Under the pieces are notes generated by a model that searched no databases, was not told where the DNA came from, and saw only the letters and a program-made list of their open reading frames with translations. Source: Nitrosomonadaceae bacterium (GTDB taxonomy: Bacteria; Pseudomonadota; Gammaproteobacteria; Burkholderiales; Nitrosomonadaceae). Taken from it: a stretch of 62,368 nt of DNA. The position numbers and the translations under genes are program-made. Location: assembly GCA_014190895.1 (NCBI GenBank), contig BJGV01000007.1:1-62368 (forward strand), in the 5' to 3' direction. Shown here piece after piece: positions 27,996-58,331 of the stretch. Within the stretch, counting starts at the first letter, position 1. Each line of letters starts with the position of its first letter.

Positions 27996-28140
27996 AATGC
28001 AGATAATAAATAATGTAGATACTGTAATATAGTTAAATGATCATGATTCGGGTGGCACAGATTTAACAGAAATAACACCTTTGTATTTTGTCTGTGTGAA
28101 TCTGAGGAATTACTTGGGGTTACTTTTTCAGGATTTAATT

Positions 28141-29661
28141 ATGTGTGGAATTTTAGGCGTGGTTGCAAAATCTCCCGCCAATCAATTGCTTTATGATGGA
28201 TTGCTGGTTCTGCAACATCGTGGACAGGATGCTGCCGGTATTGTTACCGCGCAGAAAAATACTTTTCATATGCATAAGGATAGCGGTTTGGTAAGAGATG
28301 TATTCCGTACCCGTGATATGCGTCATTTGGTTGGTAATATAGGCATAGCGCACGTACGTTATCCCACTTCCGGTTCTGCTGAATCCTCTGCTGAGGCGCA
28401 ACCGTTCTATGTCAACTCTCCATTTGGTATTGTACTGGCCCATAATGGCAACCTTACCAATGCAGCACAACTCAATCAAGAGTTATTTCGTGCTGATTTA
28501 CGTCATGTGAATACCAACTCAGATTCAGAGGTGCTCCTTAATGTATTGGCGCATGAATTGCAAGGAAGCACAAGAAATCACCATTTAGATCCCGCTGCTA
28601 TCTTCTCTGCAGTGTCTGGGGTTCACCAACGTTGTCGGGGTGCTTATGCTGTAGTGGCAATGATTGCAGGTTACGGATTGCTAGCTTTTCGTGATCCCTA
28701 CGGTATTCGTCCATTAGTATTTGGATGTATTGAAAATGAGAGCGGTACCGAGTATCTAGTAGCATCTGAAAGTGTAGCGTTAGATACTTTGGGATTTAAA
28801 TTGGTGCGTGATATTGCGCCTGGTGAAGCAATTTTTATCGATGAAGATAGTAATTTCTATAGTAAACAGTGTGCCACTAATCCGACGCTTAATCCCTGTA
28901 TTTTTGAGTATGTTTATTTGGCCAGACCAGACTCAGTCATGGATGGAGTTTCAGTATATGAGACGCGACTTAATATGGGAGAAAGTCTTGCTGATAAGAT
29001 TGCCAAAAGCATGCGACATCTTGATATTGACGTAGTAATTCCAATCCCTGATTCTAGTCGCCCTAGTGCTCTGCAACTTGCCAATCGATTGGGTCTGAAT
29101 TTTCGTGAAGGTTTTGTTAAAAATCGCTACATTGGTCGTACTTTTATCATGCCAGGACAGCAGCAGCGGCGTAAATCAGTGCGCCAAAAACTTAATGCTA
29201 TGAGTGTAGAGTTTCGTGGGAAAAACGTATTATTAGTAGATGATTCTATCGTTCGTGGTACCACTAGCCGTGAAATTGTACAGATGGCGCAAGAAGCTGG
29301 TGCAAGAAAAGTATATTTTGCTTCTGCTGCCCCACCAGTAAGGTTTCCTAACGTCTATGGGATTGACATGCCGACTCGTCAAGAGCTCATTGCTACTGGA
29401 CGTGATGATGACGATATTCGTCGCGAGATTGGTGCAGACTATCTTGTTTATCAAGATCTTGATTCTTTAAAAAAAGACATATGTCGAGTTAAATCGACGG
29501 TTGCTCAGTTTGAAACCTCTTGTTTCGACGGGCATTACATAACCGGTGACGTTACACCAGAATATTTAGCAGCGATTGAAACTCAACGTAGTAATAATGT
29601 AATCGTTTCGCACAGGGAATCTGACGCGCAATTAGATTTAAGTTTAACTACAGCAGATTGA
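28141..29661 (+). CDS. purF: Amidophosphoribosyltransferase
   Basis: Commits PRPP to purine synthesis using glutamine. 506 residues. ATG at 28141 is required because the catalytic cysteine must become residue 1 after Met removal (MCGILGVV); AGGA lies just upstream. The N-terminal Ntn glutaminase domain is followed by the phosphoribosyltransferase domain with the PRPP loop VLLVDDSIVRGTTSRE. The stop codon overlaps the -35 box of the metZ promoter. Confidence 0.97.
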   Translation: MCGILGVVAKSPANQLLYDGLLVLQHRGQDAAGIVTAQKNTFHMHKDSGLVRDVFRTRDMRHLVGNIGIAHVRYPTSGSAESSAEAQPFYVNSPFGIVLAHNGNLTNAAQLNQELFRADLRHVNTNSDSEVLLNVLAHELQGSTRNHHLDPAAIFSAVSGVHQRCRGAYAVVAMIAGYGLLAFRDPYGIRPLVFGCIENESGTEYLVASESVALDTLGFKLVRDIAPGEAIFIDEDSNFYSKQCATNPTLNPCIFEYVYLARPDSVMDGVSVYETRLNMGESLADKIAKSMRHLDIDVVIPIPDSSRPSALQLANRLGLNFREGFVKNRYIGRTFIMPGQQQRRKSVRQKLNAMSVEFRGKNVLLVDDSIVRGTTSREIVQMAQEAGARKVYFASAAPPVRFPNVYGIDMPTRQELIATGRDDDDIRREIGADYLVYQDLDSLKKDICRVKSTVAQFETSCFDGHYITGDVTPEYLAAIETQRSNNVIVSHRESDAQLDLSLTTAD

Positions 29662-29686
29662 CAAAAATAATTACTAAGCGTAGCTT
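29658..29686 (+). promoter_or_regulatory. metZ promoter, sigma-70 type
   Basis: A perfect TTGACA (29658-29663) overlaps the purF stop, followed after 17 bases by TAGCTT (29681-29686). Transcription would start at about 29692-29694, exactly where the riboswitch structure begins. Confidence 0.6.
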
Positions 29687-29693
29687 AGACATA

Positions 29694-29747
29694 TGCGCCG
29701 ATTTGATATTCAGCTTGCGGGCGCGTTATAAATTCAGCTAAAGCGGG
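29694..29747 (+). promoter_or_regulatory. SAM-II (SAM-alpha) type S-adenosylmethionine riboswitch upstream of metZ
   Basis: The stretch follows the SAM-II pattern known from the metX RNA: a GCGCC/GGCGC stem (29695-29699 with 29720-29724), a GATTTG loop strand, an inner CTTGC, then GTTATAAAT and CAGCTAAAGCGGG on the 3-prime side for the H-type pseudoknot. It sits in front of a methionine-synthesis gene and ends just before a terminator. CGGG at 29744-29747 can pair with CCCG at 29756-29759 of the terminator arm, suggesting mutually exclusive folds. Recognised by eye, not by covariance search. Confidence 0.75.
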
Positions 29748-29754
29748 AAAATCC

Positions 29755-29786
29755 CCCCGTTTGAGCGAATGCCAAGCGGGGTTTTT
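29755..29786 (+). terminator. Rho-independent terminator (attenuator) before metZ
   Basis: A nine-base-pair stem (29755-29763 with 29773-29781, one G-U pair) around a nine-base loop is followed by TTTTT. It lies between the SAM-II element and the metZ ribosome-binding site, so it probably acts as the expression platform and may also terminate read-through from purF. Confidence 0.8.
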
Positions 29787-29804
29787 ATTTGGAGGAGACT
29801 TATT

Positions 29805-30986
29805 GTGGTCGATAATTTTGAATTAGAAACGTTGGCATTACGTGCGGGGACTCATCGTAGCCAATTCAATGAACACTCAGAAGCTTTGTATCTTACTTCC
29901 AGTTTTGTATTCGATAGCGCTGCTCAAGCTGCTGCTCGTTTTTCCGGCATAGAACCTGGAAATGTATACTCACGCTTCACTAATCCCACTGTCACTGCTT
30001 TTGAAGAACGGTTAGCGGCATTAGAAGGTGCAGAGACTTGTGTTGCCACCGCCTCTGGTATGTCAGCAATACTTTCTTGCGTCATGGGACTGCTTTCTGC
30101 AGGCGACCATATTATTGCCTCACGTAGCCTTTTTGGCGCCACAGTAAGTTTATTTAATAATGTTCTTAAACGTTTCGGCATTGAGACCACTTATGTCTCT
30201 GCCACTGATGTGATTGCATGGCAGGCAGCAGTGAAAACTAATACGAAACTTTTATTCGTAGAGACGCCATCCAACCCACTCACCGAGATTTCAGATATTG
30301 CAGCACTAGCTTTAGTAGCAAAGAAGGCTGGCGCATGGCTTGCAGTAGACAATTGTTTTTGTTCTCCTGTACTACAAAGACCACTGGACTTGGGAGCGGA
30401 TCTAGTGATTCATTCTGCAACTAAGTATCTCGATGGTCAGGGCAGAGTGTTAGGCGGCGCGATACTTGGAAAACGTGAGTTAGTAATGGAAGGAGGAATA
30501 TTTAGTTTTTTACGCACTGCCGGGCCAACCTTGAGTGCTTTTAATGCCTGGATTATCCTGAAGGGCATGGAAACCCTAAAGATTCGTATGGATGCACACT
30601 CTGTAAATGCCCTAGAGATAGCTAACTGGCTAGAAAAACAACCTGATGTGACAAGAGTTTATTATCCGGGCCTATTGTCACACCCGCAATATAGTCTTGC
30701 CAAGCAACAGCAGAAAACTGGTGGCGGTATTGTTACATTTGAAGTCAAAGGCGGAAAGGAAGCTGCATGGCGTTTAGTAGATTCGACCCGTATGATTTCA
30801 ATTACCGCTAATTTAGGAGATACTAAAAGTACATTGACCCACCCTGCTAGTACTACCCATTCACGTATTAGTCAGGAAGAACGAGATTTGGCAGGCATCA
30901 CCGATGGTCTGTTGCGTATTGCAGTTGGGCTAGAAGCGATTACAGATATTAAAGCAGATTTAGAAAAAGGATTAAAGAAACTTTAA
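29805..30986 (+). CDS. metZ: O-succinylhomoserine sulfhydrylase
   Basis: Makes homocysteine directly from an activated homoserine and sulfide. 393 residues from GTG at 29805, which has GGAGGAG eight bases upstream; a longer frame would start inside the terminator. The PLP lysine is Lys207 in HSATKYLDGQG, and the YSRFTNPT and SGMSAI blocks fit Cys/Met-metabolism enzymes of the MetZ group. O-acetylhomoserine as substrate cannot be excluded. Regulation by SAM is implied by the upstream riboswitch. Confidence 0.92.
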   Translation: MVDNFELETLALRAGTHRSQFNEHSEALYLTSSFVFDSAAQAAARFSGIEPGNVYSRFTNPTVTAFEERLAALEGAETCVATASGMSAILSCVMGLLSAGDHIIASRSLFGATVSLFNNVLKRFGIETTYVSATDVIAWQAAVKTNTKLLFVETPSNPLTEISDIAALALVAKKAGAWLAVDNCFCSPVLQRPLDLGADLVIHSATKYLDGQGRVLGGAILGKRELVMEGGIFSFLRTAGPTLSAFNAWIILKGMETLKIRMDAHSVNALEIANWLEKQPDVTRVYYPGLLSHPQYSLAKQQQKTGGGIVTFEVKGGKEAAWRLVDSTRMISITANLGDTKSTLTHPASTTHSRISQEERDLAGITDGLLRIAVGLEAITDIKADLEKGLKKL

Positions 30987-57968: not shown

Positions 57969-58331
57969 GGGGGCGACCTGGTTTCGACGTGGATTACAAA
58001 GCAGCGCAGGGCATACCGAGGACCAGTCACCTCGTAAATACATCTGGAAAAGCAATAGTCGCAAACGACGATAGTTACGCTCTAGCCGCTTAAATCCGGC
58101 TAGACTCCGCACCGATGGGCCTCAACGTCGGGCTTGGTAACAAGCAACGGAGCCATTAACGAGGATCGTGCTCGGTAGGGCCGCTTTACAGAGTGCTAAA
58201 CAATAGGTGGCTCGCTCTTCATTAGTCCGCCGGTTGACGGATGACGAGTTAAATTAAATAACATGGCTAAGTATGTAGAACTGACTGTAGAGGATTTGCG
58301 GACGCGGGTTCGATTCCCGCCGCCTCCACCA
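57969..58331 (+). ncRNA. ssrA: Transfer-messenger RNA (tmRNA)
   Basis: Rescues stalled ribosomes and tags the unfinished protein. The ends form a tRNA-like acceptor stem: GGGGGCG (57969-57975) pairs with CGCCTCC (58321-58327), followed by A and an encoded CCA. The GACCTGGTTTCGACG D-arm region and the T-arm GGTTCGATTCC are present. The tag frame starts at the resume codon GCA (58061) and reads ANDDSYALAA with a TAA stop at 58091-58093. SmpB (not in the window) is the partner. The 3-prime end is a classic integration site and is followed by an integrase gene. Confidence 0.98.

Follow-up and report, generated by a model that had tools for sequence, protein, structure and literature searches.

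A SAM-II riboswitch of probable transcriptional type upstream of metZ in a Nitrosomonadaceae bacterium and its relation to the metXZ RNA element

The leader between purF and metZ in the analyzed DNA (the window, a stretch of 62,368 nucleotides from a Nitrosomonadaceae bacterium) is in all likelihood a SAM-II riboswitch of the transcriptional OFF type that controls metZ. The element is very probably a real SAM-II riboswitch, ordinary within its class and acting at the level of transcription. Both the SAM-II class and the transcriptional mode are already known, and the value of the case lies mainly in the proposed identity of the element with the metXZ RNA described for betaproteobacteria and in the precise placement of the antiterminator.

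Layout of the metZ leader and its promoter

Both purF and metZ are encoded on the + strand of the window. The leader elements sit between them in the order TTGACA box, -10-like TAGCTT, SAM-II aptamer, intrinsic terminator and metZ ribosome-binding site (Table 1). The purF match to the NCBIfam model TIGR01134 begins at residue 22 of the listed ORF start, and a purF match was present in 72 of 80 metZ loci. The downstream gene was named metZ by NCBIfam equivalogs, with 710.7 bits for NF006003 (cut-off 522) and 591.5 bits for TIGR01325 (cut-off 510.05), and the element therefore stands in the context of a methionine gene. An ORF start of metZ at 29769 is less likely, because relatives begin at an ATG that matches the GTG at 29805. 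As a whole, the leader folded no better than shuffled sequences (z -0.70) in a calculation that cannot represent a pseudoknot. In a distant part of the window a tmRNA gene (57969-58331) was the sole Rfam match above a cut-off.

Table 1. Features of the purF-metZ region (positions in the window)
Feature	Position	Strand	Remarks
purF, upstream neighbor	28081..29661	+	TIGR01134, 529.3 bits
-35 element TTGACA	29658..29663	+	overlaps purF stop codon TGA (29659-29661)
-10 element TAGCTT, poor	29681..29686	+	17-base spacer from -35; from sequence
P1 5' strand UGCGCC	29694..29699	+	Rfam match, alignment
L1 GAUUUG, third strand of SAM pocket	29700..29705	+	invariant or nearly so in alignment A1
P2 5' strand CAGCUUGC	29711..29718	+	P2a C, G, C; P2b UUGC; alignment
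P1 3' strand GGCGCG	29720..29725	+	Rfam match, alignment
GCUAAAGCGGG, P2 3' strand with SAM pocket bases and antiterminator 5' strand	29737..29747	+	
Intrinsic terminator	29755..29790	+	stem 29755-29763/29773-29781, inner 29765-29766/29771-29772, then TTTTTATTT
Antiterminator 3' strand CCCGUUUGAGCGAAU	29756..29770	+	holds most of terminator 5' arm
Ribosome-binding site GGAGG	29791..29795	+	from sequence
metZ, O-succinylhomoserine sulfhydrylase, GTG start	29805..30986	+	NF006003, TIGR01325, PF01053

A preliminary description of this DNA had proposed a TTGACA promoter that overlaps the purF stop codon and is placed to start transcription at P1. This was borne out by the sequence and by conservation in 122 distinct leaders. 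The predicted transcription start is located near 29693, at about the first base of P1. In 104 of the 122 leaders TTGAC was found no more than 60 bases ahead of P1, mostly 35-39 bases before it, and 10 of 122 contain TTGAC in the stretch 41-100 bases upstream. The combination of TTGAC and TAnnnT at a distance of 16-18 bases occurred in 95 of the leaders compared with 11 of 6100 mononucleotide shuffles, and TAnnnT usually ended 6-9 bases before P1. The conserved spacing agrees with a transcription start near the first P1 base, a position noted for SAM-II in the available text of Corbino et al. (PMC1273637). A consensus scan listed neither the promoter at 29658-29686 nor the terminator on the + strand. 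It returned instead a promoter-like site at 29644-29671 with 9 of 12 matches, where shuffled sequences yield 1.0 such sites on average, and, on the - strand, two sites resembling terminators. An inverted repeat, CTAAGC-GTA-GCTTAG, lies over the -10 element (29674-29688) and was considered as an operator. In a comparison of relatives made by eye and not by counting, it was nearly kept in one relative (L011) and varied elsewhere.

The SAM-II aptamer

The covariance model of Rfam family RF00521 (SAM_alpha) matched 29685-29758 with 30.9 bits and an E value of 1.4e-5. The SAM-II aptamer that the preliminary description had postulated before metZ was thus recovered with a score below the curated gathering score of 36. 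A default Rfam scan of the window listed no SAM-II, because the match falls just under this cut-off. The next SAM_alpha score in the genome was 17 bits, ~14 bits below that of the metZ leader. In our view the low score reflects a cut-off poorly suited to a branch with a shorter P2a helix, and no structural defect of the aptamer. Many copies of the element escape standard annotation for the same reason.

The aptamer spans 29694-29747 and resembles SAM-II (RF00521) as set out in the available text of Corbino 2005 (PMC1273637), with a P1 helix, an H-type pseudoknot P2 and a pocket formed by GAUUUG, CUUGC and GCUAAA. The surroundings described there also recur, namely a promoter a few bases before P1, a terminator between P2 and the gene, and methionine genes downstream. 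The element differs from RF00521 SAM-II in its P1 sequence (GCGCC/GGCGC), in a score below the Rfam cut-off and in the P2a of its branch, which has three G-C pairs compared with a helix of 5-6 pairs read in the alpha set described below.

Two sets of sequences were aligned. The beta set consisted of loci from the order of the window's organism together with named metZ loci, one of them labelled Rhizobium (L104). The alpha set consisted of loci from another class of the same phylum, taken to be alphaproteobacteria. After identical sequences had been merged and loci without exact anchors dropped, 123 distinct sequences remained from 199 beta loci and 15 from 30 alpha loci. P1 comprises six pairs in the window, and comparison of the two sets showed changes on both sides at two P1 pairs. 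The pair next to P1 was standard in all 138 sequences, as A-U in 15 of 15 alpha sequences and as G-C (119), A-U (3) or G-U (1) in the beta set. The outer P1 pair was standard in 94 of 123 beta sequences, compared with a shuffle mean of 68 and a maximum of 84. The remaining P1 pairs were nearly invariant in the beta set and gave no covariation signal there.

The P2 pseudoknot is present in the window, where P2b UUGC pairs with GC(U)AA and the P2a bases C, G, C pair with G, C, G. In the beta set, P2a consists of three G-C pairs directly beside the pocket, kept in 123, 109 and 119 of the 123 sequences, and P2b is invariant and hence gives no covariation signal. For the beta set a longer P2a is not supported, as it could be formed in 71 of 123 sequences, inside the shuffle range (mean 60, maximum 75). 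The alpha sequences, read by eye, can form a P2a helix of 5-6 pairs farther out.

The pocket positions U10-U12, U20-C23 and G42-A47 are all present in the window, placed by motif order with the help of the 2QWY sequence. Conservation of the pocket across the sets is partly by construction, as both sets were anchored on the pocket motifs. The pocket bases of SAM-II, including two uridines that read the sulfonium, are listed in the available text of PMC3764141. Assignment to SAM-V (RF01826) was rejected; this family was not among the 7 Rfam matches up to E 10, and the terminator precedes the ribosome-binding site.

Terminator and antiterminator

Folding recovered the nine-base-pair terminator that had been proposed just before the ribosome-binding site, with two further inner pairs and with TTTTTATTT after the stem. 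The antiterminator pairs 29732-29747 with 29756-29770 in 14 pairs with one mismatch and one bulged base, and its core duplex has a calculated energy of -15.7 kcal/mol. A pairing of CGGG with CCCG, suggested earlier as the link between aptamer and terminator, was found in prefix folding, where it forms only part of this 14-pair antiterminator that includes SAM-contact bases. In prefixes extended by three-base steps, P1 formed first, the antiterminator was present by 29770 and the terminator had replaced it by 29782; a prefix of 120 nt, reaching into the start of metZ, favored the antiterminator again. These folds ignore the pseudoknot. The antiterminator strand GCUAAAGCGGG contains the SAM-contact bases G42-A47. 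As GCUAAAGCGGG is needed by both the pseudoknot and the antiterminator, the two pairings exclude each other, and SAM and the terminator 5' arm compete for one strand.

A simple and testable strand-competition model can be formulated from these pairings. The RNA would begin at about the first base of P1. Under scarcity of SAM, GCUAAAGCGGG would lie outside the pseudoknot and pair with CCCGUUUGAGC once the latter is transcribed; the antiterminator formed in this way would block the terminator, and metZ would be read. With SAM bound, GCUAAAGCGGG would be locked into the P2 pseudoknot, CCCGUUUG would be free to pair with CAAGCGGG, and the resulting terminator would stop transcription at the U-run to give an RNA of about 95 nt. 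The analysis demonstrates the sequence elements, their conservation and the incompatibility of the two pairings, while we infer SAM as the ligand, the direction of the switch and termination itself. Shut-off of methionine and SAM synthesis in response to SAM is the expected logic of such a switch.

The occurrence of both structures was assessed in 88 leaders. These derive from 111 aptamer loci, which yielded 90 distinct leaders (L101 was too short, others were identical), minus two that are broken (L090, L112). The leaders are related, and the counts given here do not represent independent events. A terminator was found in 84 of the 88, including the leader in the window, and none was detected by the criteria used in the remaining 4. 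As controls, 203 unrelated terminators were taken from the flanks of the collected loci, with a stem of -13 kcal/mol or better (-9 for the leaders) and with exclusion of those within 60 bases of GCTAAAG. A complement of GCUAAA was located in the terminator 5' arm or loop in 48 of 84 leaders but in only 2 of 203 control terminators. The pairing of the aptamer strand was stronger than with 95% of the control arms in 45 of 84 leaders, and in the window it was stronger than with any of the 203. By folding and by comparison with these control arms, the terminator and antiterminator in the window are thus mutually exclusive and share the aptamer strand. Many close relatives exhibit an 11/11 pairing of GCUAAAGCGGG with CCCGUUUUAGC. 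In many of them, the terminator 3' arm GCUGAACGGG also resembles the aptamer strand, as competition of the two for the 5' arm would predict. By the same measure, the antiterminator pairing was not unusually strong in 39 of the 84 leaders, Thiobacillus among them. The antiterminator is different or weaker in those 39 leaders, and the one described here is therefore not universal.

These data also bear on another reading of the terminator, as the constitutive end of the purF transcript next to a real aptamer; metZ would then be under translational control or unregulated. In favor of this reading, no second terminator on the + strand was noted in the purF-metZ interval, and in the full-length fold the terminator belongs to the most stable structure. 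For Sinorhizobium meliloti metA, a terminator beside a SAM-II aptamer with no predicted SAM response is described in the available text of PMC9373788. The enrichment of terminator arms complementary to the aptamer argues against a constitutive purF end, as does the element's own conserved promoter, by which the terminator would act on the element's own short RNA. Translational control is disfavored by the position of the ribosome-binding site beyond the U-run and outside the aptamer. We therefore regard a constitutive purF end as unlikely and retain the transcriptional riboswitch as the preferred reading.

Two loci, labelled Rhizobium (L104) and Thiobacillus (L105), carry the aptamer with no terminator in the next 110 bases and have other sequence before metZ.

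Occurrence, downstream genes and the metXZ element

Of 101 genomes, 54 (including that of the window) gave SAM_alpha matches with E<=0.01, compared with 0 of 14 control genomes. At E<=10 all 14 control genomes were matched, so that E<=0.01 or a stricter threshold was used. Six of the matches scored over the cut-off; two of these, with 38.3 and 36.6 bits, are from the window's genus and share its architecture. Among 397 genomes sampled across the phylum, 108 had a match with E<=0.001, and 88 of them were above the cut-off. A covariance model (R1) was built from the window together with 23 relatives and replaced an early fuzzy-pattern scan of metZ loci that was too loose. Of 80 named metZ loci, 51 gave one or more R1 matches, including the broken loci L090 and L112, and a match was present in 220 of 300 genomes sampled from the order. 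These counts include the source sequences of R1, which match by construction and make up several of the metZ loci and at least 12 of the 220 genomes. The other 29 metZ loci gave no R1 match. A chance resemblance to SAM-II, in whose favor the score under the Rfam cut-off could be cited, is refuted for practical purposes by this distribution and by the matches that exceed the cut-off, and its probability is negligible.

Alignment of metZ leaders across Nitrosomonas, recommended in the preliminary description, would have been a misleading test, as R1 found nothing at the metZ loci of the 14 records named Nitrosomonas, all of which belong to the 29 loci lacking a match. Where purF is adjacent, in 13 of the 14, the purF-metZ gap is 16-126 bases. 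A genome of the neighboring genus g4, probably Nitrosomonas (G054), gave a weak SAM_alpha match of 24.3 bits. The closest named metZ relatives carry the names Nitrosospira or Nitrosovibrio or are unassigned, and Nitrosospira-type relatives retain the element. At metZ, R1 matched in 4 of 4 records named Nitrosospira multiformis and in the one record named Thiobacillus denitrificans. In Nitrosospira briensis Nsp8 the metZ aptamer is apparently interrupted, with two partial matches ~200 bases apart (L090:1165-1454). Copies of the aptamer were also seen on plasmids of Paracoccus seriniphilus (L248:1801-1854, 88.9% identical) and Legionella adelaidensis (L249:2501-2555, 85.5% identical); no methionine gene is annotated in the stretches seen, for which the gene tables are incomplete.

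The host had been called an ammonia oxidizer. This is likely in view of the AMO gene in 3 of the 7 further genomes searched from the genus, while the organism's own assembly gave no AMO match. Since those 3 genomes carry AMO, its absence here may be an assembly gap. The genome has a size of 1.32 Mb and is listed as 99.97% complete; the genomes of the family analyzed here reach 3.7 Mb.

The gene following the element was assigned at 118 loci, mostly best-scoring matches and not a random sample, which represent 114 distinct places (L009/L167, L010/L152, L012/L158 and L018/L151 are duplicated). It was metZ-like in 62, metX-like in 20, metH-like in 11, metY-like in 6, metK-like in 4 and other or unassigned in 15. 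The names were given by similarity to the MetZ of the window and by characteristic motifs. For metH, metK, metX and metY-like, a single example of each was compared with Pfam, where metX was identified only as an alpha/beta hydrolase. The 15 loci with other or unassigned genes might be taken to indicate that the SAM-II-like betaproteobacterial (metXZ) element binds a different ligand, such as SAH, methionine, homocysteine or another compound. Close RNA variants can switch their ligand, as in variants of the guanine riboswitch, and the P2a is not the same as in the alpha set. A methionine or SAM-synthesis-like gene nevertheless follows at 103 of 118 loci, and the SAM-contact bases listed in the available text of PMC3764141 are kept in the window, including both sulfonium-reading uridines. 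A ligand other than SAM is accordingly quite improbable.

Leyn et al. 2014 (PMC4239095) reported in the available text that SAM_alpha occurs only in Rhizobiales and Rhodobacterales, and described a "novel" metXZ RNA element in betaproteobacteria before metX or metZ. Its cases include metZ of N. multiformis and T. denitrificans. The same genes and organisms recur here, with metX found elsewhere in the order, and the features of the metXZ element in that text (a pseudoknot of regions 1-4 and 2-6, a conserved region 3 with no partner, and a terminator with a U-tract) are the same in the element before metZ. The two accounts differ in that the metXZ element was presented as novel and distinct from SAM_alpha, with other alternative pairings proposed. 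It was also said to occur once per genome, before metX or metZ, but the element studied here is found before metH, metK and metY-like genes as well. R1 placed SAM-II at metZ of both N. multiformis and T. denitrificans, and a metX-like gene lies downstream at 20 of 118 loci of the order. Because SAM-II is found at these two metZ genes, the metXZ element of 2014 is very probably the present SAM-II branch, as compared by text, position and genes. It is also likely that this branch is a short-P2a sub-branch of SAM-II in which the strand that contacts the ligand is itself the antiterminator, and that its regulon reaches metH and metK. The identity of metXZ and SAM-II was not found in the literature searched, which covered few subscription papers and in which PMC4239095 was the sole paper with both "metXZ" and "riboswitch". 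A regulatory RNA published without an identity and found in 220 of 300 genomes of the order would thereby gain a likely ligand and switching mechanism.

Terminator-linked SAM-II in betaproteobacteria was reported in 2007, according to the text available, so that a transcriptional SAM-II in a betaproteobacterium is not the surprise it had been taken for. The element also resembles the SAM-II riboswitch of S. meliloti metZ in the available text of Scheuer 2022 (PMC9373788), with the same gene and a predicted SAM-dependent terminator. An RNA of about 100 nt was seen there, and the terminated RNA predicted for the window is short too; unlike the element in the window, the S. meliloti switch is alphaproteobacterial. 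The Sargasso Sea metX SAM-II (2QWY) and SAM-V, as described in the available text of PMC6061858, share the pocket and a short P2a (2 pairs). Both are described as acting translationally via the ribosome-binding site, whereas a terminator follows the aptamer here. In the same source, a long P2a is linked to transcriptional and a short P2a to translational SAM-II. The branch represented in the window combines a short P2a with a terminator. If this holds, transcriptional SAM-II does not require the long stable P2a linked to that mode, and the case for tying transcriptional control to a long P2a helix is weakened.

A second copy of the element with a terminator was observed in the window's genome (L247:1613-1793, contig C13:44112-44292). 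It is arranged in tandem with a divergent SAM-II-like aptamer ~40 bases on, near a ribosome-binding site. The two aptamers scored 22.6 and 18.9 bits with SAM_alpha, both below the cut-off, and 57.4 and 19.1 bits with R1. Tandem SAM-II is already known, with 44 cases in the available text of PMC9481103. The tandem switch is followed by a gene for a protein of 222 residues (L247:1804-2472) with no Pfam or NCBIfam match; among 30 other related genomes searched, one gave a match, partial over 65 residues with 52% identity. A small ORF starting with M(F/Y)DC lies behind the element at several loci from other families within the order (L014, L177, L195, L206, L207, L210, L215 and L236). The two of these ORFs tested against Pfam, at L206 and L207, matched no family. 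A gene for a MATE-family transporter (PF01554) follows in L195 and is located downstream of the element in L020. In L155 (834-1451, - strand), the element precedes a gene with an FMN-binding domain (PF04299) and not a methionine gene.
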